Positions 1-18,396 of a stretch of DNA of 64,000 bases are shown piece after piece. Within the stretch, counting starts at the first letter, position 1. Every line of letters starts with the position of its first letter. The stretch is from the NCBI GenBank assembly GCA_947489085.1, contig CANLCJ010000004.1:62001-126000 (forward strand). The letters run 5' to 3'. The notes under the pieces were generated by a model. It ran no database searches, was not told the origin of the DNA, and worked only from the letters and a program-made list of their open reading frames with translations. This DNA comes from an uncultured Flavobacteriaceae bacterium. GTDB lineage: Bacteria > Bacteroidota > Bacteroidia > Flavobacteriales > Flavobacteriaceae. Made by a program: the position numbers and the translations under genes.

Positions 1-240
1 TACAATGTTAAAAAAGATATTCCAATTAACAGAAAAGAAATAGCTATGTTCGGAAATGGTTATGATAACACTGAATACTATGAAGGCTTTGCTATTTACA
101 AAGATTCCATAGTAGTAAAAGGTTACAATTATACCGAACCTGAAATGAATATTATAAACAAACGTTTTTATATTTCAGACAAAGGTAAGATTAAGTCATT
201 ATATGATATAGAGTTAGTTAGTTTTGAAGAAGAACCATAA
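1..240 (+). CDS. C-terminal part of a probable immunity protein, 5' end outside the window
   Basis: Frame is open from base 1 (YNVKKDIPINRKEIAMFGNGYDN...FEEEP*). Its 3' end overlaps the next effector module, as elsewhere in the array. Confidence 0.5.
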   Translation, partial: YNVKKDIPINRKEIAMFGNGYDNTEYYEGFAIYKDSIVVKGYNYTEPEMNIINKRFYISDKGKIKSLYDIELVSFEEEP

Positions 241-1009
241 AACGGCTTTTCATGATAACGACAATAAAACAGCACAATTATATATTAAAGTAAGGGCAAT
301 AGAAAATGTGTTTACCATTGTAGATAATAAAAGAACATTTTTAAAAAGTAGCCCTTTTAAAATGATAGGTAATAATTGGCATGAGCCAGTAGATGATCCT
401 CAGATAGCTATATATACCCAATATGGTGCAAAAAATACTCACAAAAACACTTACGGGACAGCTAGAGGATATACTCATGCAGGATTGGATATTTTTGCCT
501 TAGAAGGTTCAAATGTTTACGCTTGTTTAGATAGTGAAGTATATGAAATACAGAAATGGACAAGAAAAACAGGAAAGAGCGGATATGGGCACAATATCAC
601 ACTTAAAGTAAAAATCCCTCAAGAGATAAGAAATAGACGAAGAGAATATACATTAGCTTATACAACAGATAAAAAACAGGGGAATAGTTTTAACCCAAAT
701 TCAAATGTTTTTTATTTAAGATATGCTCATTTAGGAGATATATTGGTAAAAAAAGGAGATAAGGTAAAGACAGGAGATGTTATTGCTAAATCAGGTATAT
801 CAGGGGTAATAGATGGAACTAAAGACCCCCATTTACATTTTAACATTTATAGTGATGTTAAAAGTAATACATATTTAGTTAATCCAGCTTATTATGTATA
901 TTGGAAAGAAATAGGAGATTTAACAAAGGCTGATAAAAAAACACAAAAAGATAGAATGGATGAAGGGCTTAAAGTAGATCCCGCTCCAAAACTTTCTAAA
1001 ATAAAATAA
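224..1009 (+). CDS. M23-family peptidoglycan endopeptidase effector C-terminal module with a short linker-domain remnant
   Basis: LytM/M23 signatures HAGLDIFA and DPHLHFNIY. The N-terminal TAQLYIKVRAIENVFTIVDNKRTFLKSSPFK matches the linker TAELYLKVEATENVFKILNNGEFLKEIPFK of the 1580 ORF. TTG start, so it may be an orphan module. Confidence 0.8.
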   Translation: MKKNHKTAFHDNDNKTAQLYIKVRAIENVFTIVDNKRTFLKSSPFKMIGNNWHEPVDDPQIAIYTQYGAKNTHKNTYGTARGYTHAGLDIFALEGSNVYACLDSEVYEIQKWTRKTGKSGYGHNITLKVKIPQEIRNRRREYTLAYTTDKKQGNSFNPNSNVFYLRYAHLGDILVKKGDKVKTGDVIAKSGISGVIDGTKDPHLHFNIYSDVKSNTYLVNPAYYVYWKEIGDLTKADKKTQKDRMDEGLKVDPAPKLSKIK

Positions 1010-1010
1010 T

Positions 1011-1595
1011 ATGAAATTAATTATTTATTTAATTATTTATTTATTTATTGGATGTAAAAATCCAAATTATAAGTTTAATAATAGTACTGATGAGGGCATA
1101 TATAAAATTGATACAATAACTAAAAATAGTGAAAAAGTCCAACTATTTGATACTCTATTAATTAAAAAAGTAAGATTTAATAAAAAACCTTTTAAATTAA
1201 AACATTTGTATTTACAGGAAAAAAAAATTGATTCTGTTGTAGAAACTTTGTGGGAATGCGGTAATCCCTTTCAATGGAAGGGTGAAGTATTTGACTATAA
1301 TTATGTAAAAGGCGCTAGGTATGTAACTAATCAAAATGACGCTTTTCTAGATCACGCAAAATTTATAGGTGATAATAACCTGACTTTTATTGATTCTCAG
1401 ATTATTATAAACAAGGAAACGACTCTTAAAGATTTTAGAGTTATTTTTAAGAATCTAAAAATTCTAGAAATAGAAGAGGGATTTGCTGTATACAACATTA
1501 CATTTAATCCATCACAGCCTGAAGATAATTGGCACTTTTATTTTAATAAGGAGGGTTACATAATTTCATTTTATCTGGATTGGTGGTTGTGCTAG
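1011..1595 (+). CDS. Lipoprotein, putative immunity protein
   Basis: Signal/lipobox MKLIIYLIIYLFIGCKN. C-terminal ECGNPFQW...WHFYFNKEGYIISFYLDWWLC resembles the C-terminus of the 5618-7201 ORF. Lies directly after the M23 module. Confidence 0.6.
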   Translation: MKLIIYLIIYLFIGCKNPNYKFNNSTDEGIYKIDTITKNSEKVQLFDTLLIKKVRFNKKPFKLKHLYLQEKKIDSVVETLWECGNPFQWKGEVFDYNYVKGARYVTNQNDAFLDHAKFIGDNNLTFIDSQIIINKETTLKDFRVIFKNLKILEIEEGFAVYNITFNPSQPEDNWHFYFNKEGYIISFYLDWWLC

Positions 1596-1928
1596 TCGCC
1601 GAGTGCCCAAATCTAGAAGGGAAAACCGTAGCCTTTAAAGTTTTTGAAAAAGTACCTTTGCTAGAAGACCAAGACAAAGCACTCACACTAATCCATGAAA
1701 ACCAAGAAAAAACACGTATTGAAGCCAAAGTAGAAAATGGCTATGCCGTTGCCGAAGTAAAATTACAGCACTGTAAAGAGGATGCAGACAACACTGATTG
1801 GGAAACCACATTAGACCCCGATCAAGGCGAACTAAAAACTGCAGAACTCTACTTAAAAGTAGAAGCAACTGAAAATGTGTTTAAAATACTTAATAATGGT
1901 GAGTTTTTAAAGGAAATACCATTTAAGT
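1579..1928 (+). repeat. Linker-domain repeat copy A
   Basis: Pairs with 7185-7534. I counted 16 mismatches over 327 bp from gagtgccc to the attaag/attcaag end. Confidence 0.9.
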
Positions 1929-2623
1929 TTGAGGCTGCTGTAGACTTATATGAAATATACCATAATCATAAAATTTATAAAACTATTTTTGAGAATGCTA
2001 AAAAGGCTAGTTACTATTACATCGATTCTTCAAGTAAGAAAGAACTCATATTTACAACAAAGTATAATAAAATAAAAAGCAAGTATACAAGTTCATTTTA
2101 TGGAGGAAAGGAAGTTAACTTGATCGATCTGAGAAATTATAAAAGCTGTAATAAAAATGGACTTAAGTTCAAATTTGACATGAAGGTCGATGATAATAGA
2201 CCTTGGGTTTATCAAGATACTTTTGCTAGTTTATTGGGTGCAATGCTTGAAGTTGGATACGAAGATTTATTTTGTACAGGTTTTAGTAAAGAAGATGGCT
2301 CTCCAGGTGTAAGCTCATCACACAAGAACGGTTTTAATGGTGATTTTAGATATCTAAGAAAAGATAAAACAGGAGGTAGATTAAGATTGGATTATGACAA
2401 ACAGAAAGGAGATATTCAAGGATATTCTGACTTAGATAAAGATAGGCAAGAAAAATTAATCGATGCATTTTATAATTATGGTTGGAAAAGTTTTTTATCG
2501 CAGAAATATGGAAAAAACAAAATGTTAAAATTAAAAAGAACAACTCCAGATAGTAAACATATGAAACATTATGACCATCTACATTTACAAGGATATGATA
2601 GAAAGTTTATTAAAAAGAAATAA
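1580..2623 (+). CDS. Linker domain plus LAS (M15/MepA-like) peptidoglycan peptidase effector
   Basis: SSSHKNGFNGD and HMKHYDHLHLQGYD fit an SxHxxxxxxD ... HxH zinc peptidase pattern. The N-terminal ECPNLEGKTVAFKVFEK linker is repeated at 7186. Confidence 0.7.
   Translation: MVVVLVAECPNLEGKTVAFKVFEKVPLLEDQDKALTLIHENQEKTRIEAKVENGYAVAEVKLQHCKEDADNTDWETTLDPDQGELKTAELYLKVEATENVFKILNNGEFLKEIPFKFEAAVDLYEIYHNHKIYKTIFENAKKASYYYIDSSSKKELIFTTKYNKIKSKYTSSFYGGKEVNLIDLRNYKSCNKNGLKFKFDMKVDDNRPWVYQDTFASLLGAMLEVGYEDLFCTGFSKEDGSPGVSSSHKNGFNGDFRYLRKDKTGGRLRLDYDKQKGDIQGYSDLDKDRQEKLIDAFYNYGWKSFLSQKYGKNKMLKLKRTTPDSKHMKHYDHLHLQGYDRKFIKKK
1926..1980 (+). repeat. 55-nt repeat, copy 1 (start of LAS effector segment)
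   Basis: agtttgaggctgctgtagacttatatgaaatataccataatcataaaatttataa; matches 8058-8112 with one mismatch. Confidence 0.9.
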
Positions 2624-3395
2624 GAAAACGATATTTATTGGATTTATTTTGTCAGTTCTATTATGTAGCTGTAGAAACAACCAAAATAGAACTAAAATAG
2701 CCAATAACTCTTCGGTAAATTTTAAACAAAAAGATGTTAACAGAGATACAATATTTTTTCTTAGAAAAAATGATAGTATTATCGACGTTGTAAATAAAAG
2801 CGAAGCTTACTTTTTTAGGGTTGTCAAAGATTCTTCTTCACTAGGATATGAGTTTATTGATTTTTCAATGTATGAATATAGTGCCGGAATTCATGAACCT
2901 AAAAGATCTGGATACATACAAAATCTGTATGAATTATTTCCAGAAAAATCGATAGCAAATGGAAAGTGGATTATTTTTGGTAATGATAGTGACTTATTAT
3001 ATAATCTGAAATATCACAAAATAGGATATTATAAACAAGGTATCAAAGATAGTATTTGGTATACAAGCTATGAAGATGGATGGGATGAATATTTTTATTA
3101 TGAGAATGGAACTTCGATAGATTATGTCAAAAATGTTAAGTTTTATGGTTACCAAGAATCTTTAGTTGTTGAAGGAACAGAATTTCGTAAAGATGGTTTA
3201 CCAACAGGTATATGGAAATATTATAGGGACAATGAAGTTTTAGAACATGAATATATCCATCAAAAAGATTCAATCGTGGTAAAATATACTAGAAAGAACA
3301 AAGAAACAACTAAAATTATTGATAAAGGGTTTTTTATTGCTGCTAAATACTCGGAGGAATTTGTTCCAATTGAAATCAATCATAGGAAATATTAA
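2595..3395 (+). CDS. Lipoprotein, putative immunity protein with MORN/YwqK-like segments
   Basis: In-frame ATG at 2595 (MIESLLKRNKKTIFIGFILSVLLCSCRNN, lipobox) overlaps the 3' end of the effector. Motifs such as FRKDGLPTGIWKYYRDNE are MORN/YwqK-like. Confidence 0.6.
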   Translation: MIESLLKRNKKTIFIGFILSVLLCSCRNNQNRTKIANNSSVNFKQKDVNRDTIFFLRKNDSIIDVVNKSEAYFFRVVKDSSSLGYEFIDFSMYEYSAGIHEPKRSGYIQNLYELFPEKSIANGKWIIFGNDSDLLYNLKYHKIGYYKQGIKDSIWYTSYEDGWDEYFYYENGTSIDYVKNVKFYGYQESLVVEGTEFRKDGLPTGIWKYYRDNEVLEHEYIHQKDSIVVKYTRKNKETTKIIDKGFFIAAKYSEEFVPIEINHRKY

Positions 3396-3396
3396 T

Positions 3397-3475
3397 ATTT
3401 AGAAAACGAGCTAAACCACTCCATAATAACAAAGAAACTAGAATGTTGTATGCTAACAAAGAAAAGATTTTAAGA
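3397..3475 (+). pseudogene. Decayed 3' end of a 4093-type immunity gene
   Basis: tttagaaaacgagctaaacc...ataacaaagaaactagaat...ctaacaaagaaaagattttaagaaaa aligns with about 4768-4855 (tttagaaaacgagttagaccc...ataacaagtaagttagaat...cttacaaagaaagggctttttgaaaa). Confidence 0.55.
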
Positions 3476-4096
3476 AAAATATTCTGTCGAAAAAGAATAG
3501 TGATGATATATTACTAGCCTATTCTAAGGAAATACAATCATATAGTTCAGGAAATGTTAAATTTAAGTTTTTAACATGGAATAGTTCTTCTGGCAGATGG
3601 TATATTAATTTAGATTGTTTGGCAGGTCTTTTAGGAGCTATGATTGAGGAAAGTATTGAAGATTTAGGATTTAATGGATTTAGTGTCAAAGATGGAAATA
3701 CTGCTGGTGGAAGTAGTTCACACATTAATGGAGAAAAAGGAGATTTGAGATATTTGAGTACAAATAAAAATGGTGAAGCAATCCATTTATTTACTAATCA
3801 TACTACAAAAATACAAAATCCTAACTTTGATTATGAAAGACAAAAACGTTTTAATGAAGCTATGTATAAATACGGTTGGGGAAGATTAGCAAAAATGTAT
3901 TCTGAAAATTTTTATATAGAACAAGAAGAGGAGGTTATAAATCCCAAAACAAAAAAGAAAGAAAAGAAAAAGATAAGGGTTCTGCATTTATTGAATCATT
4001 GTTTTACATAAAATGAAAATTGGTAAAGGAGGTTATAGACATTATCATCATATTCATTTAACAGGTTTTGATCATTCTAGAATTAAAGAAAAATGA
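3457..4096 (+). pseudogene. Second LAS peptidase effector module, 5'-truncated and frameshifted
   Basis: Frame 1 encodes ...LAGLLGAMIEESIEDLGFNGFSVKDGNTAGGSSSHINGEKGDLRYL, similar to the 1580 ORF. It stops at 4011. The catalytic-looking tail MKIGKGGYRHYHHIHLTGFDHSRIKEK* is in another frame at 4013-4096. Confidence 0.65.
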
Positions 4097-4869
4097 GGCT
4101 AATAATTATTCTATTTTTAGTGGTAATCACGGTTAGTTGTCAAACTAAAAAACATAACAAAGATGAGGTTGTTCAAGTAAATATAAATAATCATTCTGTA
4201 GGAAAAAAGATTGCGATTGATTCTATATTAGCAAAGCTTCCATCGATAGATTTACCTTATTCGAGTGAGGATATCATCCCAAAAGTAAAATATTATGACT
4301 CTATAGGAGGTTATTTTGTTGATACAATTAATTTTAAAATAAGCGCTCATAAATTATATTCTTATGCAGATATCAAAAAATCACCATTTTTCTTCGACAA
4401 AGATGCTTTAAAACGTTGTTTTTTAAATAATAAATCGAATATTGTTAGTAAAAATAACCTCATATTTGCGTACCAAAATGATAATGATTATAACTACAAC
4501 ATAGCCCCTAAAGTTTTATTTCCTGTATTTAAAAAAGAGTTGCAAGATGTGAATTTAATTGGAAGTTATTCTCAATATTTTGGTGAAAATGACATTCCTG
4601 GAGTGTTTTTTATTTTGTCAAGTTTTAATAAAAATGGAAAACAGATCGACTATTTAATTGTTTTTAATAGATTTATTTGGGAAAATGGATTAGAAATTGA
4701 TTTTCAAATAAAAGAGGGTGTTGGTATTCAGGTTTATAGAAAAGAAATAGAATATTATGATGGTGATTTAGAAAACGAGTTAGACCCTCCTCGGATAACA
4801 AGTAAGTTAGAATATTATTCACTTACAAAGAAAGGGCTTTTTGAAAAGAGAACTAATAATAATGAATAA
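4093..4869 (+). CDS. Lipoprotein, putative immunity protein
   Basis: MRLIIILFLVVITVSCQTKK lipobox. The start overlaps the effector stop (ATGA at 4093-4096). Confidence 0.6.
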   Translation: MRLIIILFLVVITVSCQTKKHNKDEVVQVNINNHSVGKKIAIDSILAKLPSIDLPYSSEDIIPKVKYYDSIGGYFVDTINFKISAHKLYSYADIKKSPFFFDKDALKRCFLNNKSNIVSKNNLIFAYQNDNDYNYNIAPKVLFPVFKKELQDVNLIGSYSQYFGENDIPGVFFILSSFNKNGKQIDYLIVFNRFIWENGLEIDFQIKEGVGIQVYRKEIEYYDGDLENELDPPRITSKLEYYSLTKKGLFEKRTNNNE

Positions 4870-4924
4870 CACTTTGTGAATTTTACTTTTTAGAGTTATC
4901 TGTCTAATTCATAAATAGCTGTAA

Positions 4925-5080
4925 ATTAAATTATTAAGTATCAATAAAGAATATTGGCTCGCACACATAGAAGCTGTAACAACTTATAACAATGTAGCAA
5001 GTATGGGAGGACAATCACGTAAAGACCCTGAGTTATTTATGAAAACAAAATTTGATAAAGATGGAAAGGTTATTAAATAA
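4925..5080 (+). pseudogene. Orphan C-terminal fragment of an effector (toxin family unknown)
   Basis: Short open frame IKLLSINKEYWLAHIEAVTTYNNVASMGGQSRKDPELFMKTKFDKDGKVIK* ends overlapping the start of the next lipoprotein, as in the other effector/immunity pairs. Confidence 0.45.
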
Positions 5081-5495
5081 TAGTTTTATTTGTTTATTTA
5101 TTTATTCTTGTCTAATAATTTCTTGTAAAGAAAATAAAACATTAGATGATTCATTAAGTACTAGAAATAAGTTGACCTCTAGTACAGCTAACCAGTCTAT
5201 TGGTGTCAAAAATATGAATAGAGAATCTCAATTTCAAAAAAAAGAAGTATTTTATATAGATAGCGTTCTTGTTAATGGAAGAGTGCCTTTATATACAACA
5301 TATGATTTTTTTACAAAAAATCTTGGAAAACAAGATAGCATACAACCTTTTACGGGAGAGATATATTCAGCGTTTGAAGACGCTACTGAAGTCGAAACAA
5401 AATCGCTTTATAAAAATAATTCAGAATATGAATTATACAAAGGACAACTGATATATTATAATATTGAATTGGACTACCTAGTAAATTTGGTATAA
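5061..5495 (+). CDS. Lipoprotein, putative immunity protein, probably 3'-truncated
   Basis: MERLLNNSFICLFIYSCLIISCKEN lipobox. FYIDSVLVNGRVPLYTTYDFFTKNLGKQDSIQPF resembles the LSINQVLFNGEKMNIKYSDLKKKFRDSI region of the 5618 ORF, but ends next to an IS remnant. Confidence 0.5.
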   Translation: MERLLNNSFICLFIYSCLIISCKENKTLDDSLSTRNKLTSSTANQSIGVKNMNRESQFQKKEVFYIDSVLVNGRVPLYTTYDFFTKNLGKQDSIQPFTGEIYSAFEDATEVETKSLYKNNSEYELYKGQLIYYNIELDYLVNLV

Positions 5496-5499
5496 ATAG

Positions 5500-5612
5500 T
5501 TAAGCGACTTTTCTATAGTTATTGATTTTAATTTCTAATTCTTTTTCAGCAGGAGTTTTGTAGTCAAGTGAGGAATGTAACCTTTGATAATTATACCAAT
5601 TTATATATTTAC
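5500..5612 (-). mobile_element. IS3-family transposase C-terminal remnant
   Basis: Minus-strand translation YINWYNYQRLHSSLDYKTPAEKELEIKINNYRKVA* is a typical IS3-family orfB C-terminus. The catalytic core is absent. Confidence 0.75.
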
Positions 5613-5617
5613 CAATT

Positions 5618-7201
5618 ATGAAGTACCTACTATATTTTTCATTAACGATTAGCTTTTGTTTTAACTGTGGTAAATATAATAAAGGTAAGAAAGAGAAGGA
5701 AGATATACAGCAAGATATCTTAGAAGATAGCATCTCTCAGCAAATACAAGAAAATAATCTCAAAAAAGATATAAGGTATGTTAATGCCGAAAATGGATTG
5801 AATTATAGAGATTCACCAAATGGGAATGTAATTGGTAAATTTACTAATGGCATGAGCCTCGATATTGTTGGTTATTCAGGAATCTATCAAGAGGTAGAAG
5901 ATGAGGACGAAATTTTGAAAGGAGAATGGTTATATGTATTAGCTCGAAAAGACACCGTATACGTGTTCAGTGCGTTTTTATCACAAGATAAAGATGTTAG
6001 CAAAATTCCAGAAGAGAATGAGTATTTTGTAGAAAATGTTGAAGATCTATTCAAAACCGATGAATTTGTAAAAGAGCATCTTAATGATTCAATTATTGTC
6101 AAGCAAATTCCTGTAAAAAACTTTATGAATATTCAGAAAATATCAAAGAAGGAATTTGAATCTATTTTCAAAGAAAATAATAATCTCAAGAAGGAAAAGC
6201 ATATCAAAAAAACAGATAGTATTATCAAAATAAGATGCCTTAATAATAGATCTATAACTTATAAGGACAATTATCCTGAATATGATGAGGAAATCGAAAC
6301 CTATGATTATTCAGGAACATATGAGGCAATTAATTCTTATCTAATAATCAAGAACGGTTATGAATGGAGTTCATATCTGATAATAAATAAAAATTCATGT
6401 GAATTTGTGGAATATAATGGCCTTCCTGTGTTTAATTCTAATTTCTCAAAAATGATCACTGTTAATACTGATAGTTACAAGTATACTGATTTCGAGGTTT
6501 ATAACTTAGTAAATAATAGATTCGAATTAGCCAACACTTTTACTTTAGATTTGACTGTTACCGACCTTGTTTTTGATAAGCAAAATAACTTTTATATATC
6601 ATATGCGGTAGAATGGAACGATGGAGAAATTCAGAAAAAGTCGTCTCAGTATTTTGCTATTAATAGAGTTTCTCTGGAAAACTCTGAAAAAAAGGTACTA
6701 GAAGAAAAAAAGAATACACATTTGGATACATTATCAATAAATCAAGTGTTATTTAATGGAGAAAAGATGAATATTAAATATTCTGATTTGAAAAAGAAAT
6801 TTAGAGATTCTATTACCTATTCTGAGTGGGCTTGTGGACACCCTTTTGAATGGGAGAATGATAGTGTGGATTTTTGGTCGTACCATACTAGAGGTTTAAC
6901 GTATGAGACAAATAAAGAAGAAGCATTATTGATTAGAGGAGAGGGTAAGAACTTGAATTTGATTATAAAAAATAGAAATGTTAAATTAAATAGAAATATA
7001 ACATTAAATGACTTCAAAAGTGTATTTCCTAATTCATACAAAGATTACAAATTTCGGAAAAATAAGTTTCCTAATGATTACGAATATTCTGATTACATAC
7101 ATGTTGCTTTTGAATTAGAATATCCTGAGCATCATTGGATTTTTTATTTTGACAAAAAAGGATTTTTGAAAAGTTTTGAATTGTATTGGTGGTTATGCTA
7201 A
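5618..7201 (+). CDS. Large lipoprotein: SH3b-like domain, middle domain and C-terminal immunity-like domain
   Basis: MKYLLYFSLTISFCFNCGK lipobox. NAENGLNYRDSPNGNVIGKFTNGMSLDIVGYSG is SH3b-like. C-terminus DTLSINQVLFNGEK...WACGHPFEWEN...YPEHHWIFYFDKKGFLKSFELYWWLC matches the 1011-1595 ORF. Confidence 0.6.
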   Translation: MKYLLYFSLTISFCFNCGKYNKGKKEKEDIQQDILEDSISQQIQENNLKKDIRYVNAENGLNYRDSPNGNVIGKFTNGMSLDIVGYSGIYQEVEDEDEILKGEWLYVLARKDTVYVFSAFLSQDKDVSKIPEENEYFVENVEDLFKTDEFVKEHLNDSIIVKQIPVKNFMNIQKISKKEFESIFKENNNLKKEKHIKKTDSIIKIRCLNNRSITYKDNYPEYDEEIETYDYSGTYEAINSYLIIKNGYEWSSYLIINKNSCEFVEYNGLPVFNSNFSKMITVNTDSYKYTDFEVYNLVNNRFELANTFTLDLTVTDLVFDKQNNFYISYAVEWNDGEIQKKSSQYFAINRVSLENSEKKVLEEKKNTHLDTLSINQVLFNGEKMNIKYSDLKKKFRDSITYSEWACGHPFEWENDSVDFWSYHTRGLTYETNKEEALLIRGEGKNLNLIIKNRNVKLNRNITLNDFKSVFPNSYKDYKFRKNKFPNDYEYSDYIHVAFELEYPEHHWIFYFDKKGFLKSFELYWWLC

Positions 7202-7534
7202 TCTCCGAGTGCCCAAATCTAGAAGGGAAAACCGTAGCCTTTAAAGTTTTTGAAAAAGTACCTTTGCTAGAAGACCAAGACAAAGCACTCACACTAATCC
7301 ATGAAAACCAAGAAAAAACACGTATTGAAGCCAAAGTAGAAAAAGGCTATGCTGTAGCCGAATTAAAATTACAGCACTGTAAAGAGGATGCAGACAATAC
7401 TGATTGGGAAACCACATTAGACCCCGATCAAGGCGAACTAAAAACAGTAGAACTCTACTTAAAAGTAGAAGCTACCGAAAATGTATTTAAAATTCTTAAT
7501 AATAGTAAATTTTTAAAGGAAGTACCATTCAAGA
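7185..7534 (+). repeat. Linker-domain repeat copy B
   Basis: Direct repeat of 1579-1928. The first about 135 bp after gagtgccc are identical. Confidence 0.9.
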
Positions 7535-7569
7535 TGAATGGTACTACTTGTAGTCCGTGCCGATTATGA
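7186..7569 (+). pseudogene. Second copy of the effector linker domain, lacking a C-terminal effector domain
   Basis: ECPNLEGKTVAFKVFEKVPLLEDQDKALTLIHENQEKTRIEAKVEKGYAVAELKLQHCKEDAD... nearly identical to the 1580 ORF, then ends FKMNGTTCSPCRL*. Confidence 0.6.
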
Positions 7570-8179: not shown

Positions 8180-9367
8180 TTACGATAACTCCACCTGAGT
8201 CCCATTAACAAATTCTTTTTTTTTCTTGCTTCGGTATACCCAAGCTATTTGGCCTAACTGCATTATAATTTTTGCCGAGTCTTTCATAGAAAGCTTAGAA
8301 CCATCTGCATGTATCCAGCGCTTTAAAGGTTGCTCGCATATATAATCTATGGCTTGTTTTCTACCAAAATAGGCAGACATACGTTTAAAAATTTCAACAT
8401 CGAATATCCATTGCGTTACAAATTTTTTATCGAAAGCCAAATGAATAACATCTTTACTAAAGATTTTTGCACCACATTGTGTGTCTTTAAATTCCATGCC
8501 CAAAATTTTTCTTATAATGTAATTAATAGACATACTTATTAGTTTTCTGGCAGACTCTTTAGTAATGTCTGCTCCCATGCGGCTTATTCTGGAACCACTA
8601 ACAATTTTAAATTTTGAGTTTTCTATGGTAGTTACCAAATCATCAAAATCTTTAAGATCTGTAGACAAATCGGCATCTAAAAAACCAATGTAATCCAAGT
8701 CTGTTTTACTTGCCATGTGCAGCATTCCAAGTCTTACGGCTTCTGCCTTACCTCCATTTTGTTCGCAATCGTAAACCGTGATATAATCTTCACGCCCTTT
8801 TTGCAAATCATGCAGCACTTTAAGTGTATTGTCTTTACTACCATCGTTTACAAAACAAAGGTGGTACCCCGAGTTGGTATTTATAAAGGTTATAAATTCA
8901 TCACTCAATAAACGGTCTTCTTCATTATAACAAGGTATAACCACGCCCACACAACGCTGTTGTATAACGGTATTGCTTTTAAACGATGGCGTGTTAGATT
9001 GCACTTCTGGTAAACCAATAAGGCGTTTTACACGTGCAAAAATTTCGTTTAAACTCAACGGTTTTTTCATGTAATCGTTAATACCCAAATCGAAACCTTC
9101 TGTAATAGTTTCATCTGTAGTATTGCCAGATAGTACCATAATTGGCGTATCTTTAAATCTTGAATTTCTAATATATTTTACCACATCTAAACCCGATACA
9201 ATAGGCATATTAATATCTACTATTACTAAATCTGGACAAAAACTATCAAATTGCGATATGCCTTCTCTAGCATCGGTTTCTATTTTTACATCATATCCAA
9301 GGTCACTCAATCCTTTTTGCAATGGTAATAATACGAGTTGTTGATCATCAATGGCTAAAATCTTCAT
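8180..9367 (-). CDS. Response regulator receiver domain fused to a family 2 glycosyltransferase (DPM/Alg5-like)
   Basis: REC motifs: MKILAIDDQQ, LVIVDINMP, VLSGNT, MKKPL. GT2 motifs: VGVVIPCYNEE, FVNDGSKDNT, NGGKAEAVRLGM, FLDADLSTD. Confidence 0.9.
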   Translation of the reverse strand: MKILAIDDQQLVLLPLQKGLSDLGYDVKIETDAREGISQFDSFCPDLVIVDINMPIVSGLDVVKYIRNSRFKDTPIMVLSGNTTDETITEGFDLGINDYMKKPLSLNEIFARVKRLIGLPEVQSNTPSFKSNTVIQQRCVGVVIPCYNEEDRLLSDEFITFINTNSGYHLCFVNDGSKDNTLKVLHDLQKGREDYITVYDCEQNGGKAEAVRLGMLHMASKTDLDYIGFLDADLSTDLKDFDDLVTTIENSKFKIVSGSRISRMGADITKESARKLISMSINYIIRKILGMEFKDTQCGAKIFSKDVIHLAFDKKFVTQWIFDVEIFKRMSAYFGRKQAIDYICEQPLKRWIHADGSKLSMKDSAKIIMQLGQIAWVYRSKKKKEFVNGTQVELS

Positions 9368-9558
9368 AATGTAGGCGTTTTCAAATTTGGGTCAATCAAA
9401 TATATCATTATAATTGTAAGAAAAATAATATATTAGTTAAAAACCTGTTAAAGTGTCGACCAATGGTAAATTTAAGGGGTCAATCAACATTTTTTTAATG
9501 TGCTTGTTATAAGTATATTTACAGTAAAATCTTTAGTACCGTTGAAAAATTTTACAAT

Positions 9559-12500
9559 TTGATCCCCACCAAATCTAACAAACATCTCATTTTAGCTTTG
9601 CTAATGGGTATCGCTTTTCATGGCACCTCTATTTTTTTTACGTTAGAGACCACTTACGATGCTTTAATACATTTGTTTTTTGCAGAGCATTATGCTGGGA
9701 GTTGGTTTGAGCCTTGGAACTATAAATGGTATACAGGCTTTACCGTAATGAGCTATCCTCCGTTGGTACACCAATCTATAGCTGCTCTATCTTTAATTGG
9801 AGGGCTTAAATTCGGCATGTTTACCGTTGCGCTTATTGGTATTGTCTTATTTATTACTGGAGCCTACAGATTTTCGTTGCTCATAACAAGTAACAGAACC
9901 GTTGCTGGCTATGCAGCGGTGTTAGCCGTATTTTCATCCTCGTTTGTAGAAACGTTACATGTTTTTGGACAATTGCCAAGTATCTTGGGCATATCTATAC
10001 TAATGCATGCCTTACCAGAAATTTACCTTTGGTTAAAAACAGGAAAAATAAGATACTTATTTACCTGTTTATCGCTTATATCTGTTACAGTAACATCCCA
10101 CCATGTTACACCCATTTTTGGTATGGTATTTTTTATATTTCCCTTAATAGGCACTGTAATTATGGATGTTTCCAGAGCACAAGTGTCTTCGATGAAAGAG
10201 GTTACTTTTAAAGTGTTTTTAGCAAGCTTCTTTAAGCTTTTTAAACGCATAATTACCTTTGGCATGCTTTCTTTAGCCATAATAATTACTTGTATTTTAC
10301 CTTATTGGATAAACTCTAAGAAAAACCCTATTACACAAGTTCCTATACCGCATGGTTCCAGAGATAATTTTATGGAAATTACCTCCTCAGGTCTTGTATT
10401 TTTTTTAATTCCCTGGGGTGTATTGCTACTACTTCTCCCCTATATTTTTTATAGATATTACAGCAAACGGTATTTATTTTTTGGCTTTTCTATTACTATT
10501 CTAACGGTTTTAGGTACTGGAGGCACCACTCCTATACCTCGTTTATTTTTAGGAGAAACTGCTTTTAATATTTTAACTTTAGACAGGTTTACTCTATGGG
10601 CATCCATTATGTCCATTCCACTTTTTGGAGAATTTGTATACCGCCTATCCGAAGGCGATTTAAAACAACTTATACAAGAAAAATTGGGGGCTATTTACCA
10701 CCGTATCATAGGAGGCATTTTTGCTGGACTTTTTATATTTATGACGATTTTTACAATGAGCTTGGGATATTTTAGGCCCTCACAGCCCCAAAAAATCAAC
10801 ATGCTTCCCATTATTAATTTTCTAAATCAAGACCAACACGACCATTGGCGTTATATGACTTTGGGGTTTGGAGACCAAATGGCATGGTTATCTGCACAAA
10901 CCAAAGCATTGAGTGTAGATGGTAATTACCATTCTGCCAGACGCCTTCCAGAACTTACTACCAGACCTATAGAACGCTTAGAGAACTCTAAATTTAAAGG
11001 TGTAGAAGGTATTGGCTCTTTACAGCAATTTTTAACCACACCAGAAAAATATAATTTCAAGTATATTTTTTCTAACGATAAATTTTACGACCCTATTCTA
11101 TACTTCTGCGGTTGGCAACGCTTAAGGCAGCTAGAGAATGGCATACAAGTTTGGGAAAAGTTAAATGTACCTCCTCTATCTTCCATACTCCCAAAAGAAG
11201 ACGTAGGCAAATGGCAAAAAATACTATGGGGTATTATGCCTTTTTTAACGGTACTAATCGCTTTTATATTGAACATACAGCTCATGTGGGTTAGAGCTCT
11301 TAAAACCAAAATTAAACCTACGCCAGATTATCTCAAATTTAAAAATAACTACGTAAAATTTAATAGAAATCTTTTAAGACTAACACACATTTGGTCTATA
11401 GGAATCGCTGTTATAGTACTTTACGGCATCCACTTATTTTACATTAAAAATGACAGCCACCACTCGCCAGAAAATGCGCTTTTGGCTTATTACGATGCTA
11501 TCGATTTTAAAAGATTTGAAAAAGCGCACAGTTTGATTAATCCTAAAAGCAACCTCTCTATAGCGCAATACATGCTAGAAATATCTGTAACCGATGGGTT
11601 ATTGAGTTCTTATGCAAAACTAGATGCTATAGAAACAAAAATAACCACACAAAACGATACTTTAGCGGCCGCAATAGTCTCTACCAAATGGATTACACCA
11701 TTAGAAAAAATAAAACGAACAGATTACCGCACGTTGGCAAAAGTAAAAGGCAAATGGTATGTTAATCCTGAAGATATTGATTTAGATTTGCCTCCAGATC
11801 AATTTTACTCAAACAACGAAACCGATTATTTTAACCAAGGACGCCGGCGTATAACAACCGAACAAACGCATCATGAAGATGTGCTTAAACAACCTGTTTT
11901 AGAAATTATTAGTGCTAAATTGGTAAAACACAAAAAAAGCTATGCTTTAATAGGAGAAGTTCAAAATGTAGACAACGTCCCTGCCGATGTTGTTTTAAAA
12001 GCCACACTCTACAACGATGCTAATAAAACACTAGCAACATACAATGCCAAACACCAAATAAAGCATAAACTTATGCCCAAAGAAATAAGTGCTTTTAGAA
12101 TTAATTTTGAAGGTATCGCATGGTCTAAAACTAAAGACTCTATTCCTAAAACATTCAATCCAGACGAATTTACTCCCGTAGCGTTTGAAGAACAACCTAC
12201 AAAGTTTAACCTTCAAGCAGCAGGAAATGTATCTGGATCTGATTTGTATAAACAAACCGTGTTAAGCGATTTAGAAATCTCAGACAGTATAATTTCTGGA
12301 AAACTATTCAACTCTGGTTTAAAGGAAGTTACCATACCGCAAATTATTATTTCTTATTTTGATGCTGATAAAAATTTACTTTGGGTAGATCATGATTTTG
12401 TTATAGAAGGTATAAGGCAACAACGCCAGCAACATTTTGAATATGTTATAGAAACCGACAGTGTAAAAGTAATTAGTACAGATATGAAAAATTGTTTTGT

Positions 12501-12648
12501 AAATGGCTTACCGAATAAAGATATCGCAGATAAAGTAATCCCTAACAGAATTAAAAATCAAACTTATACAGAATTACAGGCCATAAACCATCCCATTTAC
12601 AACTTTGTTAAACTAGAAACCAATGCCTATTTGGGCAACCCCGATTAA
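9559..12648 (+). CDS. Large polytopic membrane protein, GT-C-like glycosyltransferase, with soluble C-terminal region
   Basis: 1029 aa; about the first half has many hydrophobic helices; early loop TTYDALIHLFFAEHYAGSWFEPWNYKWYTGF is GT-C/STT3-like. TTG or nearby start. Confidence 0.6.
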   Translation: MIPTKSNKHLILALLMGIAFHGTSIFFTLETTYDALIHLFFAEHYAGSWFEPWNYKWYTGFTVMSYPPLVHQSIAALSLIGGLKFGMFTVALIGIVLFITGAYRFSLLITSNRTVAGYAAVLAVFSSSFVETLHVFGQLPSILGISILMHALPEIYLWLKTGKIRYLFTCLSLISVTVTSHHVTPIFGMVFFIFPLIGTVIMDVSRAQVSSMKEVTFKVFLASFFKLFKRIITFGMLSLAIIITCILPYWINSKKNPITQVPIPHGSRDNFMEITSSGLVFFLIPWGVLLLLLPYIFYRYYSKRYLFFGFSITILTVLGTGGTTPIPRLFLGETAFNILTLDRFTLWASIMSIPLFGEFVYRLSEGDLKQLIQEKLGAIYHRIIGGIFAGLFIFMTIFTMSLGYFRPSQPQKINMLPIINFLNQDQHDHWRYMTLGFGDQMAWLSAQTKALSVDGNYHSARRLPELTTRPIERLENSKFKGVEGIGSLQQFLTTPEKYNFKYIFSNDKFYDPILYFCGWQRLRQLENGIQVWEKLNVPPLSSILPKEDVGKWQKILWGIMPFLTVLIAFILNIQLMWVRALKTKIKPTPDYLKFKNNYVKFNRNLLRLTHIWSIGIAVIVLYGIHLFYIKNDSHHSPENALLAYYDAIDFKRFEKAHSLINPKSNLSIAQYMLEISVTDGLLSSYAKLDAIETKITTQNDTLAAAIVSTKWITPLEKIKRTDYRTLAKVKGKWYVNPEDIDLDLPPDQFYSNNETDYFNQGRRRITTEQTHHEDVLKQPVLEIISAKLVKHKKSYALIGEVQNVDNVPADVVLKATLYNDANKTLATYNAKHQIKHKLMPKEISAFRINFEGIAWSKTKDSIPKTFNPDEFTPVAFEEQPTKFNLQAAGNVSGSDLYKQTVLSDLEISDSIISGKLFNSGLKEVTIPQIIISYFDADKNLLWVDHDFVIEGIRQQRQQHFEYVIETDSVKVISTDMKNCFVNGLPNKDIADKVIPNRIKNQTYTELQAINHPIYNFVKLETNAYLGNPD

Positions 12649-13859
12649 TGCATATTTGCTACAAACATATCATATCAATTGTAATGCTTTTGCAGTTAAC
12701 CCACATGACGTCTCAGGCTGGTAGTTTAGACGCCAACTTTAGTTTGGCTACTACACAAACAGAATTTACAGCAGGTAATCCCGTTATACTCCATTTTATT
12801 GCTGCAACCACCTCAACACCTAAACTTTACATAAGTAATAGTTTTGGTAGCACACTTATTACTCCAGTACGAAATGGCAATACTTTAAGTTATAACATAC
12901 CAAGACCTCTGGGAACCAAAGCAGGGGTTATCAATTGGAAATTATTAGCCAGTACATTACATGGCCAAATCAACATATTACCATCTCAAAATGTAGCTAT
13001 AATTCAAAGTTATCTAGGGCCTCCAAGTATAACGGCTGGGCGAAGAGATTATACCATGCTGGTAAACATACCTACAGACGCTTTCGATAATCCATTGGCA
13101 GACGGTACTAAAGTTGCAGTAAAACACCTGTTTTTAAACAAGCAAACTATAGACACTGTTAAAATTAAAAATAGCATCAACTACAAAAATATATTCTCTC
13201 CATTTAAAACAGGACGCGTAATAGTAAGCGCCTCTTGTTACGACTTCAATTCAAAGGAATACGATGTTAATATCATGCCTGCGCCACCTACTAACTTCAA
13301 CATAACTTATAATAGACACCATAATTATGCAGATGGCAACCAAATTACAACGTTTACAACATCTAAAATTAAAGACCCATACGGTAATATTGTAAGCGAT
13401 GGTACTTACGTGCAATTTTTTATTAAAAACGCTGAAAAAGCGGTGCTTAAAACATCTGGCACTACAATTAATGGTAGCGCTGTAGCCAGAATGATACACC
13501 CCAACCATGAAGACACTTGGAGCGCCAAAGCTTATGTGGTTGGCATGGCAGAAAGTAACACTGTTACATTACAATTTAAGCCCGTTATTACAGATTTTAA
13601 TATTGTACTTTCAAAATCGAACAGACACCTAAAGGTAGGGCCTTTGGTTAGTTTTATGCAACAAATGATACCAGATGGCTTGGAAGTAAAACTGGAAGTT
13701 TATAAAGAAAATAAGCACATAGAAACCCTAAGAAAAAGTAGCGCTAAGGGCTACGTAAATTTTAAATTAAACCCTAATCAGTTTCCTAATTCCACATACA
13801 CGTTTAAAGTGCATGCCGCACGAATTACCAAAACATTAAACGCTATAAAAATATGGTAA
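12648..13859 (+). CDS. Secreted Ig-like/beta-rich protein
   Basis: Signal peptide; segments such as TKIKDPYGNIVSDGTYVQFFIKNA resemble invasin/Ig-like repeats. Start overlaps previous stop (TAATG). Confidence 0.6.
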   Translation: MHICYKHIISIVMLLQLTHMTSQAGSLDANFSLATTQTEFTAGNPVILHFIAATTSTPKLYISNSFGSTLITPVRNGNTLSYNIPRPLGTKAGVINWKLLASTLHGQINILPSQNVAIIQSYLGPPSITAGRRDYTMLVNIPTDAFDNPLADGTKVAVKHLFLNKQTIDTVKIKNSINYKNIFSPFKTGRVIVSASCYDFNSKEYDVNIMPAPPTNFNITYNRHHNYADGNQITTFTTSKIKDPYGNIVSDGTYVQFFIKNAEKAVLKTSGTTINGSAVARMIHPNHEDTWSAKAYVVGMAESNTVTLQFKPVITDFNIVLSKSNRHLKVGPLVSFMQQMIPDGLEVKLEVYKENKHIETLRKSSAKGYVNFKLNPNQFPNSTYTFKVHAARITKTLNAIKIW

Positions 13860-15367
13860 CTATTAATAAAAACATATTACGAAGTATTTTGATTTTATCT
13901 TACATAAACGTTATCATTATTATAGTTGTTGGTATAAGCAAAGTATTTTGCTTTTTAAATACCGGAGCAGATCGCAGCAAAATGCTGCATACAGAACTTA
14001 AAAAAATAGAACAGTATATACCACAACTGGAATGGGCGCCTTTAGAAAATGAGGGACGCCCTATGGATATGCAAACTTTAAAGGCTATAGAAACCGATTA
14101 CCTAGATGCTTGGTACGTAAAACATATTGCCTACAAAACCAACACTACAAACGGCATAAAGGATTATTATACAAAAAACGCCAGAACAAGTATTGTAAAG
14201 CTTGTAGACAAAAATAAATTAGATAGCATACATATAGATGCTACTACGCTAAGCCACCATATTACTTTAGATTTTTTTAGTGAAGATGGACAACTGGCCG
14301 TAATAACAGATAAAGATGTTAGCGAATACAAACGCATCTATCATAAAAACAAGCTTGTTTTAGAATCTAAAGAACAAGCCACATACAAAGCCATTATTTT
14401 ACTAGAAGATGGCTTTTGGCGCATAAGGCACCTCAAAAAAACAGCTCATAAAATACTGGAAGACAGCACCAGTGCTGCTAAAATTAAAATTAATACTATA
14501 AAAGGCATTAATTATTACCCACAGGCTACGCCTTGGAACATGTATGGAGACGCATTCGATAGCTTACAAATTGCAAAAGATTTTAAAATTATTAGCAATG
14601 CTGGATTAAATACCATTAGAATTTTTGTGCCTTACGAAGATTTTGGCGCTGCCAATGTAAAGCCAAAAAAGTTAGAAAAAATAAAAACAGTTTTAAATAT
14701 TGCAGCGCACCACAATTTAAAAGTTATGGTAACCTTATTCGATTTTTTTGGCGATTACGAAGTTATCAATTGGACCTTAAACAGGCACCATGCAGCAACA
14801 CTTGTTACTGCATTAAAAGACCACAAAGCACTATTAGCTTGGGATGTAAAGAATGAACCTAATTTAGATTTCGAGTCTCGAGGCCAACCAAAAGTGTTGG
14901 CGTGGTTAGATAATATTATAGATCTTGTAAAATCTACAGATACCTTACACCCTGTAACTATTGGATGGTCCAATGCAAAAAGTGCTCACTTTTTAAAGCA
15001 TAAAATAGATTTTGTATCCTTTCACTATTATGAAGATTTAGAATATATGGAGACCACGTATACTGCGCTTAAAAAAGACATTGCGAAGCCCATTGTAATT
15101 ACGGAGTTTGGTTTGTCGTCTAATAAAGGGGTCTGGCACCCTTTAGGAAGTACCGAAAAAGACCAGGCCAATTATCACAAGTACTGCCAAAATGTGTTTG
15201 CAAAACACAACATACCGTTTATGTCTTGGACGCTTTACGACTTTTCTAAAGTGCCAAAAGAAGTCGTTGGACGACTTCCCTGGCGAAAACAAACTCAAGA
15301 GCATTTTGGCTTTATCAACCAAAAAGGAGAGACTAAGCCTGCTTTCAAATATATCTCTACAAAATAA
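13853..15367 (+). CDS. Membrane-anchored glycoside hydrolase, GH5-like
   Basis: TIM-barrel signatures: KGINYYPQATPWNMYGD, LLAWDVKNEPNLD (acid/base Glu), FVSFHYY, IVITEFGLSS (nucleophile Glu). N-terminal TM segment. Confidence 0.75.
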   Translation: MVTINKNILRSILILSYINVIIIIVVGISKVFCFLNTGADRSKMLHTELKKIEQYIPQLEWAPLENEGRPMDMQTLKAIETDYLDAWYVKHIAYKTNTTNGIKDYYTKNARTSIVKLVDKNKLDSIHIDATTLSHHITLDFFSEDGQLAVITDKDVSEYKRIYHKNKLVLESKEQATYKAIILLEDGFWRIRHLKKTAHKILEDSTSAAKIKINTIKGINYYPQATPWNMYGDAFDSLQIAKDFKIISNAGLNTIRIFVPYEDFGAANVKPKKLEKIKTVLNIAAHHNLKVMVTLFDFFGDYEVINWTLNRHHAATLVTALKDHKALLAWDVKNEPNLDFESRGQPKVLAWLDNIIDLVKSTDTLHPVTIGWSNAKSAHFLKHKIDFVSFHYYEDLEYMETTYTALKKDIAKPIVITEFGLSSNKGVWHPLGSTEKDQANYHKYCQNVFAKHNIPFMSWTLYDFSKVPKEVVGRLPWRKQTQEHFGFINQKGETKPAFKYISTK

Positions 15368-16574
15368 CTTCTTCTGTACGTGTTACTTTAGATTTTGTTT
15401 TCTTAGAAATTACAGCATCAAAAGCAATAAGATATAATTCGGCTATTTTAGACATAGGGTACGCTGTTGCAGCTTTATAATTTGCCTTTTCTAATTCAAT
15501 TCTATACTCCTTGTTCTCTAGAATTTTTTGAATAGCAGCTGCTAAACTGCTCGTACTTGTAGGGTCGAAAAACTCACCTTTGTACCCTTCGTCCTGCACC
15601 AATAGAGCAAGATCTCCAAGATCTGGCATAACTACTGCTTTGCCATAACTTCCCGCTTGGTGCAATACGCCAGAACTTCCTGTTGTAGATGTATATGGAA
15701 ACACAACTACTGTACTTTCCTTAAATAACCGTGGCACGTCCTCTTCAGCAACATACCCTGTAAACGTTACCCCTTTAACATGGCTGTATTCCTGTCTTAC
15801 AGCATCCAAATACCCCGGTGTGTTGGGGTTGTCTGTTCCAGCTATAACAATTTCCATATCCAAATTAGATGTTTTGCGTATGGTTTCTACAGCATCTATC
15901 ATTTTTTCCACTTTCTTATAAGTTCCAAATTTCCCAAAAGTCATGATCTTAAAAGGTTTTGCAGATGCACCGTACTCTGGTTCTTCCAAAACCTCAAAAG
16001 TACCATGAGGGATCAACTTTACATTGTTTACATTGTATTTTTTACTTAAAATATCAACATATTTCTGCATGGTTACCGCAACAACATCTGCTTGCAAAAT
16101 TAAGCGTGTTAATGTACTTCCAATAAAACCGTACAAGCGCTGCATTATCTTATTCTTTGTAAAACCGGCATTACCTAAATCTACCTCTTCCATAATATTG
16201 TGTAATAGTACAATATTTGGTATTTTCTTAAGTCTGCATACCAATGGTAACATTAAGCCCAAAGCAGCAGCTATTTTTTTATCTCCAAACTTCATAAATT
16301 GGAGGTTAAATAAAACAGCATCTGGACGCGCAGCACTTATAGCCTTTGTTACGTTTACAATGTTAAGATAGCTATTAAATTTCCAGCATTCATTAACCGT
16401 TATTTTACAACCATCGGTATTAAATGTCAGCTCCTTTTCGCCTTCAGTAATATCGGTTAATAATACCAATTCTGTCACCCGTTGTTTTTGTCTAAAATGC
16501 TTTACCAAATGGTAGGCATATTCATTTAACGTGACTTTACTTGGCGGATAGGCGGTTACAATGGCTAGTTTCAT
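15357..16574 (-). CDS. Family 4-type glycosyltransferase
   Basis: IVTAYPPSKVTLNEYAYHLVKHF; KLIPHGTFE; IMTFGKFGTYKKVEKMIDA; VVFPYTSTTGSSGVLHQAGSYGKAVV. Confidence 0.85.
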   Translation of the reverse strand: MKLAIVTAYPPSKVTLNEYAYHLVKHFRQKQRVTELVLLTDITEGEKELTFNTDGCKITVNECWKFNSYLNIVNVTKAISAARPDAVLFNLQFMKFGDKKIAAALGLMLPLVCRLKKIPNIVLLHNIMEEVDLGNAGFTKNKIMQRLYGFIGSTLTRLILQADVVAVTMQKYVDILSKKYNVNNVKLIPHGTFEVLEEPEYGASAKPFKIMTFGKFGTYKKVEKMIDAVETIRKTSNLDMEIVIAGTDNPNTPGYLDAVRQEYSHVKGVTFTGYVAEEDVPRLFKESTVVVFPYTSTTGSSGVLHQAGSYGKAVVMPDLGDLALLVQDEGYKGEFFDPTSTSSLAAAIQKILENKEYRIELEKANYKAATAYPMSKIAELYLIAFDAVISKKTKSKVTRTEEVIL

Positions 16575-16686: not shown

Positions 16687-17925
16687 CTAAACTTTTTTAT
16701 ACCGAACTTTAAAAAATATAATTTGAATAGCTAACAATAAAGCCATTGCTACAATTTGCATGAAAACAACTTGCGCCAAACTCTCGTGAAAAAAAACAAC
16801 CAGAGCAACTTGCAATAACCCAAAAATGCCAGATATTATAACGGGGACATAACGATCTAGAGATAAATAGTAGTATGCAAAAATATTAGATATGGCAAAC
16901 ATGGAGGTTGCCAGTGCATACTTCCATAATAAAGTAGACATTGCTACATAACTATTTCCAAAGAGAAGCGTTATAATAAGTTCGGGGAAACAAAAACACA
17001 CTATTACGATTGTAATAGATATTATAGCGATATAAGTTATATATTTAAATAAAATACCTGTTGTTGCTTTCCCTTCTTTTTTTAATTCTACAACTGTTGG
17101 TAGCAAAAGCATTACAAACATCCATGCGATAAAATAAACAATGCGACCTATAAGTGCTAAAGAAGCATACAAACCCGCATCATAAGACTCAAAATAATGT
17201 TTTACAAGGAGTATATCGCTGTTATTAATTACAATTTGTGTAAGCTCATAAAAAGCTGTTATTAAAAAGAAACGCTTTATACTTTTAGCATGATGTTCTG
17301 GAAGCTTTACTGTTTTAAAACTTATGTTTTTGTAGCGAAACGGCAGCATCCCAAAAATAAAAGATACAAATATACCTATGGCTATAATAATAGAAGATGG
17401 TATCTCTAACACATACAAAAGCATTAAAGTAACAATCAGCCTGCTTAGCATTTCTAATTGATAGGTAATTGATAAGTAATTGAACGCTTTTTTACCTTGG
17501 TATACACCACGATTAACACTCATTAAAAAATAAAGTGGCACACCACAACCAAATACAGCGAACATTTGTGCTGTAGAAGTATGAAAGACCTGTTGCAACT
17601 GTTTGGAAAATAAAACGATAAGAAACCCCATAATGAGGCCAACACCAAAAGCATTTTTATAAATCTTTGATATAAAGTTTTTAAACAGTGTATGCTCGAA
17701 TAATACTGAAAACTTAGCAGTTACCAATTGAAAGGTCATTGCTGCAAAAGACAGTACCAAAAGAAACGTTATTAGCACAGCAGCATCGGCAAAAGCTGCA
17801 GGGCCTAAAAAACGTCCTAAAATTAAATTGTAAATATAATTACCGCCATTTACAGCCAGTACGCTTAACATAAATACCTGTTCTGGTGTAATTTTCTTAG
17901 ATCTTAGCATTGCTATAAGTTGCAT
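16687..17925 (-). CDS. Oligosaccharide flippase/polysaccharide biosynthesis protein (MOP superfamily)
   Basis: 412-aa polytopic protein with Wzx-like layout (NGGNYIYNLILGRFLGPAAFADAAVL...). Confidence 0.8.
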   Translation of the reverse strand: MQLIAMLRSKKITPEQVFMLSVLAVNGGNYIYNLILGRFLGPAAFADAAVLITFLLVLSFAAMTFQLVTAKFSVLFEHTLFKNFISKIYKNAFGVGLIMGFLIVLFSKQLQQVFHTSTAQMFAVFGCGVPLYFLMSVNRGVYQGKKAFNYLSITYQLEMLSRLIVTLMLLYVLEIPSSIIIAIGIFVSFIFGMLPFRYKNISFKTVKLPEHHAKSIKRFFLITAFYELTQIVINNSDILLVKHYFESYDAGLYASLALIGRIVYFIAWMFVMLLLPTVVELKKEGKATTGILFKYITYIAIISITIVIVCFCFPELIITLLFGNSYVAMSTLLWKYALATSMFAISNIFAYYYLSLDRYVPVIISGIFGLLQVALVVFFHESLAQVVFMQIVAMALLLAIQIIFFKVRYKKV

Positions 17926-18126: not shown

Positions 18127-18396
18127 CTAGAGAGTCTCAAAATCTTCATGTAATGCTTTGCACCCATATCCAACAAAACATAAACTTTTTTTCTCCTGTA
18201 GCGCAAAGGCATAGAGTTCCCGAAGCACTTTCATACCGTTAGCATCTATTTGCGTAACAGCTCCTATATCTAGTGTAAGTTTTTTGGTATAGAGAATTAA
18301 AAATTCTAAATGGCGTCGTAGTTGTTTAGTGGTATTAGCATTAATGCAACCTCTAATAATAAAAGTGTCTTTGTATTGCTTAATTTTTAATGACAT
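18127..18396 (-). CDS. STAS-domain protein (anti-sigma-factor antagonist-like)
   Basis: LTLDIGAVTQIDANGMKVLRELYAFALQEKKSLCFVGYG fits STAS fold. Confidence 0.75.
   Translation of the reverse strand: MSLKIKQYKDTFIIRGCINANTTKQLRRHLEFLILYTKKLTLDIGAVTQIDANGMKVLRELYAFALQEKKSLCFVGYGCKALHEDFETL

Follow-up and report, generated by a model that had tools for sequence, protein, structure and literature searches.

A receiver-glycosyltransferase fusion conserved in Flavobacteriaceae beside a putative polysaccharide cluster and an H-NOX/NosP-like relay operon

The fusion protein and its gene cluster

The window analysed here, a stretch of 64,000 nucleotides from an uncultured Flavobacteriaceae bacterium, carries on its minus strand, at 8180-9367, a gene for a receiver fused to a glycosyltransferase (REC-GT). 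The first-pass annotation had read this gene as one continuous 395-aa open reading frame (ORF) with an intact receiver and an intact family 2 glycosyltransferase (GT2) domain, and each part of that description holds. The minus strand is a single ORF of this length, the plus strand is full of stops, and the domain-architecture search that the annotation had proposed finds both Pfam models over their curated cut-offs. Response_reg (PF00072) covers residues 3-114 (E 1.6e-22) and Glycos_transf_2 (PF00535) residues 142-308 (E 1.4e-20, 74.3 bits), with a linker at 119-139 and conservation up to about residue 380. The receiver has the acidic pair D7/D8 (IDDQQ), the phosphoacceptor D51 (VDINMP) and K102-P103 (KKP), all as annotated, together with the further switch residues S80 and Y99, so that the Ser/Thr and aromatic positions of a response regulator are also filled; its fold matches are activated receiver structures. 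D7, D8, D51, S80, Y99 and K102 are identical in all 18 REC-fused rows of the alignment. The DxD motif of the GT domain is present as DADLSTD at 231-237. The polyprenyl-phosphate type of the GT, the polysaccharide cluster and the NO-sensing relay described below did not figure in the first-pass annotation.

When the GT domain is searched alone, its sequence matches ArnC (6e-8) and GtrB (3e-7), and a structure model search returns ArnC, GtrB and dolichyl-phosphate mannose synthase as fold matches. The GT-A fold, the DxD motif and this closest similarity place the domain with the polyprenyl-phosphate GT2 enzymes of the DPM1/ALG5/ArnC/GtrB type. No TM-like segment was found in REC-GT (maximum hydropathy 1.38) and, because it lacks C-terminal TM helices, it was not filed in the membrane-anchored GtrB/ArnC subgroup. 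Based on the similarity and on the GT-C-like neighbour, REC-GT is predicted to transfer a sugar to polyprenyl phosphate. The structure model shows a receiver and a GT-A domain with a pLDDT of 76 overall, falling below 50 at the linker (residues 123-137), so that the confidence of the inter-domain arrangement is too low to trace an allosteric path through the protein. Judged from its sequence, REC-GT is a well conserved, uncharacterised enzymatic response regulator with a GT as its putative output.

REC-GT is transcribed divergently from a gene for a 1029-aa GT-C-like membrane protein (9559-12648, plus strand), with 191 bp (9368-9558) between them, and in 46 of 55 loci a GT2 gene is divergent from the GT-C-like gene across 104-286 bp. 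The GT-C-like protein has at least 8 TM-like segments and homologues that are 58-83% identical in 38 of the 151 family genomes. Its class is inferred from topology only, since Pfam names no family for it (the weak PTPS_related match is sub-threshold) and a profile search gave no PDB match. The most likely task of the GT2 is to make the lipid-phosphate-sugar donor for this protein. Two genes follow on the plus strand, encoding a secreted or periplasmic protein with a weak Ig-like (Invasin_D3) signal (12648-13859) and a membrane-anchored TIM-barrel glycoside hydrolase that is weakly GH158/GH5 mannanase-like (13853-15367). The minus strand then carries a GT4 glycosyltransferase (15357-16574), a polysaccharide flippase (Polysacc_synt_3; 16687-17925) and a STAS-domain protein (18127-18396), which many relatives have in the same place and which may provide a further regulatory input inside the cluster. 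The last gene (18500-20617, plus strand) encodes a TPR protein with a likely C-terminal outer-membrane barrel and a weak partial match to PgaA/BcsC models, and this protein is likely an outer-membrane export porin. Neither the GT4 nor the flippase matches a PelF or PelG model, and the cluster was not filed as Pel. Of 59 loci, 12 have a phosphomannose isomerase gene next to the GT; coming from neighbours in a minority of loci, this is a weak hint that mannose is the sugar.

Two features of the surroundings may be mentioned separately. The window region at 224-7569 consists of repeated paralogous genes, in which 1580-2623 and 7186-7569 have a common N-terminal domain and 1011-1595 resembles the C-terminus of 5618-7201; possibly, this is a duplicated effector/immunity-like array. 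In relatives, the TPR gene and the REC-LytTR gene are separated by a gene for a surface protein of about 860 aa (L160:10159-12741, L166:7341-9953), which has a DUF6923 domain and a type IX secretion tail and is absent from the window.

Spread of the fusion and exchange with receiver-less glycosyltransferases

Full-length REC-GT proteins with 58-81% identity are present in about 34 of the 151 family genomes, which also hold two further, more distant homologues (41-44%). In public records identity reaches 92%, and named carriers include Algibacter luteus, Zunongwangia mangrovi, Kordia jejudonensis, Tenacibaculum finnmarkense, Zobellia amurskyensis, Flavobacterium hydatis and F. xinjiangense. Across a sample of the phylum, 12 of 396 genomes have a full-length REC-GT and 11 of these belong to the same family. 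A frame error joining two genes, which the first-pass annotation had raised against its own reading, or any other sequencing or assembly join, has practically no chance of being the explanation, since the same fusion recurs full-length and in the same frame in some 34 genomes from independent assemblies and forms a single clade on the GT tree. One full-length REC-GT (G303:C32:619670-620812, E 1e-222) belongs to a genome whose code places it in a different family of this class, possibly through transfer or because of a taxonomy boundary. Six genomes (G401, G362, G433, G456, G236 and G479) have two REC-GT genes each, mostly close together, and one of the two copies is often more divergent.

The cluster does not always contain the fused form. 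Among its 38 carriers, 31 have REC-GT and 7 have a receiver-less GT2 at the same position, and nearly all cluster loci examined contain one GT2 with DADLST[DN], of either type; a few genomes have a second cluster copy. The fused and receiver-less types separate on the GT tree (in which L082_1, a contig-end fragment, is wrongly labelled as receiver-less), and at least 3 and up to 5 switches between the two states fall on the cluster tree. This indicates that two different GTs replace each other, and there is no support for the idea that receiver-less GTs arose by simple loss of the receiver. The presence of a receiver-less enzyme in 7 of 38 carriers also means that the receiver is separable, and on this evidence it is most likely an added, regulatory module.

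Many fused loci have, downstream, a short ORF that resembles the N-terminal half of the unfused GT and has no DxD motif. These truncated GT2 ORFs are 136-175 aa long and conserved (L039:9047-9550, L042:8512-9021, L067:9387-9914 and others). A plain pseudogene is not supported, as the closest pair gives a dN/dS of about 0.15, which points to purifying selection on the truncated ORF.

The relay operon and a model for control by the receiver

A relay operon occupies 21048-27206 on the plus strand. It encodes a stand-alone receiver domain (21048-21458), an H-NOX (HNOB) gas sensor (21428-21994) whose closest match is the Kordia algicida H-NOX crystal structure 6BDD, a soluble PAS-HisKA-HATPase histidine kinase (21994-23970), a NosP-like FIST/FIST_C protein (23977-25110), a soluble HisKA-HATPase histidine kinase (25111-26169), a 105-aa HPt protein (26169-26486) and a REC-LytTR DNA-binding response regulator (26496-27206). 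No TM segments were found in either kinase, which fits soluble gas sensors. The HPt protein has no Pfam match; its model is a helical bundle (pLDDT 94), its best fold matches are HPt domains at modest E values (0.025 and up), and His55, in the motif VHKxxHK, is invariant in 18 sequences, so that both the bundle and the conserved histidine of an HPt domain are present.

The relay operon adjoins the TPR gene in most loci with conserved gene order. The window has it inverted relative to most relatives, where the REC-LytTR end faces the TPR gene. An HPt gene is present in 37 of the 38 cluster carriers compared with 23 of the 113 other genomes (Fisher p = 3e-18, a value that overstates independence because the genomes share ancestry), and it lies within 30 kb of the cluster in 30 genomes; in G101 it is 2.3 Mb away. 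No GGDEF or PilZ domain was found in the genome, which is 98.6% complete, and the locus was therefore not classed with the c-di-GMP-controlled polysaccharide synthases, which have PilZ or another c-di-GMP input and GGDEF enzymes in the genome.

Taken together, we propose that REC-GT is a response regulator whose output would be the enzyme itself, a polyprenyl-phosphate sugar transferase. It would load a lipid carrier, with mannose as one candidate sugar, for the divergent GT-C-like protein, which in turn would use the lipid-sugar in building or decorating a polysaccharide for export. When D51 is phosphorylated, GT activity or membrane docking would change, and in the presumed direction of gating the signal, presumably NO, would throttle the lipid-sugar supply at once. 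The likeliest phosphodonor would be the HPt protein of the adjacent H-NOX/NosP kinase operon, and the relay would phosphorylate both REC-GT and REC-LytTR, the latter adjusting transcription as a slow control of the same polysaccharide next to the fast one. The most economical prediction is that phosphorylation gates sugar transfer directly, and it is strengthened by the receiver-less GT2 at the same cluster position and by the linked HPt phosphorelay. Since genomes across the family retain the fusion next to an NO-sensing relay, a gas may act as a direct throttle on slime production. We put the probability of the joint model, in which a relay-driven REC-GT gates the lipid-sugar supply for an exported polysaccharide, at roughly 0.5.

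The part of this model that concerns the donor can be questioned. Clusters with a receiver-less GT have the relay to the same extent, which leaves REC-LytTR as its constant output, and REC-GT is not necessarily one of its targets. REC-GT may be phospho-gated by a kinase elsewhere or by acetyl phosphate, with the linked HPt relay serving only REC-LytTR and cluster transcription, and in most loci there is indeed no kinase adjacent to the GT gene. However, no other kinase is consistently linked to it, and in two of the three genomes that have lost the GT-C-like gene, REC-GT is still found at a distance of 6-8 kb from the HPt operon. We consider a separate donor unlikely, but well worth keeping in mind.

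It is also conceivable that phosphorylation matters little to catalysis and that the receiver serves for dimerisation or localisation, bringing the GT to a membrane export complex. ArnC and GtrB, the closest fold relatives, are membrane-anchored by TM helices, REC-GT has no TM segment, and receiver domains often dimerise. A mere scaffold, however, would not require all phosphorylation-switch residues, including S80 and Y99, to be invariant, and receiver-less GTs occupy the same place in other clusters; a purely structural role thus seems improbable.

Information could finally flow in reverse, with the GT sensing the lipid or nucleotide-sugar supply and the receiver feeding back on the relay, either as a sink for phosphate or as an adaptor. 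Three genomes without the GT-C-like gene and cluster (G078, G118 and G114) have REC-GT proteins in which the DxD motif is lost and the receiver residues are intact, and identity in G114 (L070) is 62% for the receiver and 38% for the GT. Stand-alone receivers that are 63-65% identical to the REC-GT receiver lie directly upstream of REC-GT in Algibacter-like genomes (L039:10779-11150; L082:10001), and such a copy is found beside it in G044 and Algibacter. These observations would suit a receiver with a role of its own, but the three genomes lack the cluster and their proteins may equally be decaying, and within the GT-C clusters examined only a few secondary or truncated REC-GT copies depart from DADLST[DN]. 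We regard reverse flow as a rather remote prospect. A more far-reaching version of the relay-driven model is that an NO/haem-sensor phosphorelay ends directly on a biosynthetic GT and also on a transcription factor, without c-di-GMP, so that a gas would control the supply of polysaccharide precursor post-translationally, and that after cluster loss the receiver with its dead GT persists as a signalling pseudo-enzyme; this combined proposal is tentative, with the odds somewhat against it.

Most characterised control of bacterial polysaccharides is by transcription or c-di-GMP. If the relay-driven model is correct, there would be a second-messenger-free route with the receiver sitting on the biosynthetic enzyme itself, in marine bacteria that are abundant and produce polysaccharides. 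Since receiver-less versions exist naturally in this cluster, deleting the domain is a direct way to see what the receiver adds to regulation, and for the linked H-NOX the crystal structure of a close relative (6BDD) is available.

Comparison with known systems

The first-pass annotation had presented a GT as the output of a response regulator. The architecture is right, but it has a precedent: according to PMC5847659, which cites Galperin 2006, response regulators with a receiver and a BcsA-like GT occur in Methanobacteriaceae (MTH_548). As described there, they resemble REC-GT in that a family-2-type GT carries one or two receivers, and in their narrow taxonomic spread. The archaeal GT is of the PF13641/BcsA-like kind, whereas the REC-GT of the window is bacterial, linked to an NO relay and of the PF00535, polyprenyl-phosphate type; PF13641 scores 23.1 bits on its GT domain, below the 27-bit Pfam cut-off, so REC-GT is not of the MTH_548 type. 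The literature searched gave no functional study of either protein and did not describe any polyprenyl-phosphate GT joined to a bacterial receiver, which is no proof of novelty. ArnC, GtrB and dolichyl-phosphate mannose synthase share the GT-A fold, the DxD motif and sequence and fold similarity with REC-GT, but have no receiver.

Enzymatic response regulators are also known in Bacteroidota. PorX, from Flavobacteriia, likewise joins a CheY-like N-terminal domain to an enzymatic C-terminal domain, with a PglZ-type phosphodiesterase as output (PMC10951265). That enzyme is alkaline-phosphatase-like and has a role in type IX secretion, in which it differs from REC-GT (PMC10951265). The closest parallel to the relay is in Vibrio fischeri, where HnoX-HahK-SypF/LuxU-SypG controls the syp polysaccharide, again with an NO sensor, a sensor-controlled kinase and a phosphorelay over a polysaccharide locus (PMC12369376). 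REC-GT fusions, enzymatic response regulators in Bacteroidota and an NO-HnoX relay over a polysaccharide locus are thus known already; within the literature searched, what appears to be new is a bacterial receiver fused to a predicted polyprenyl-phosphate-type GT. Whereas the outputs in V. fischeri are the regulators SypG and SypE (PMC12369376), the window has a receiver on a biosynthetic enzyme of the cluster.
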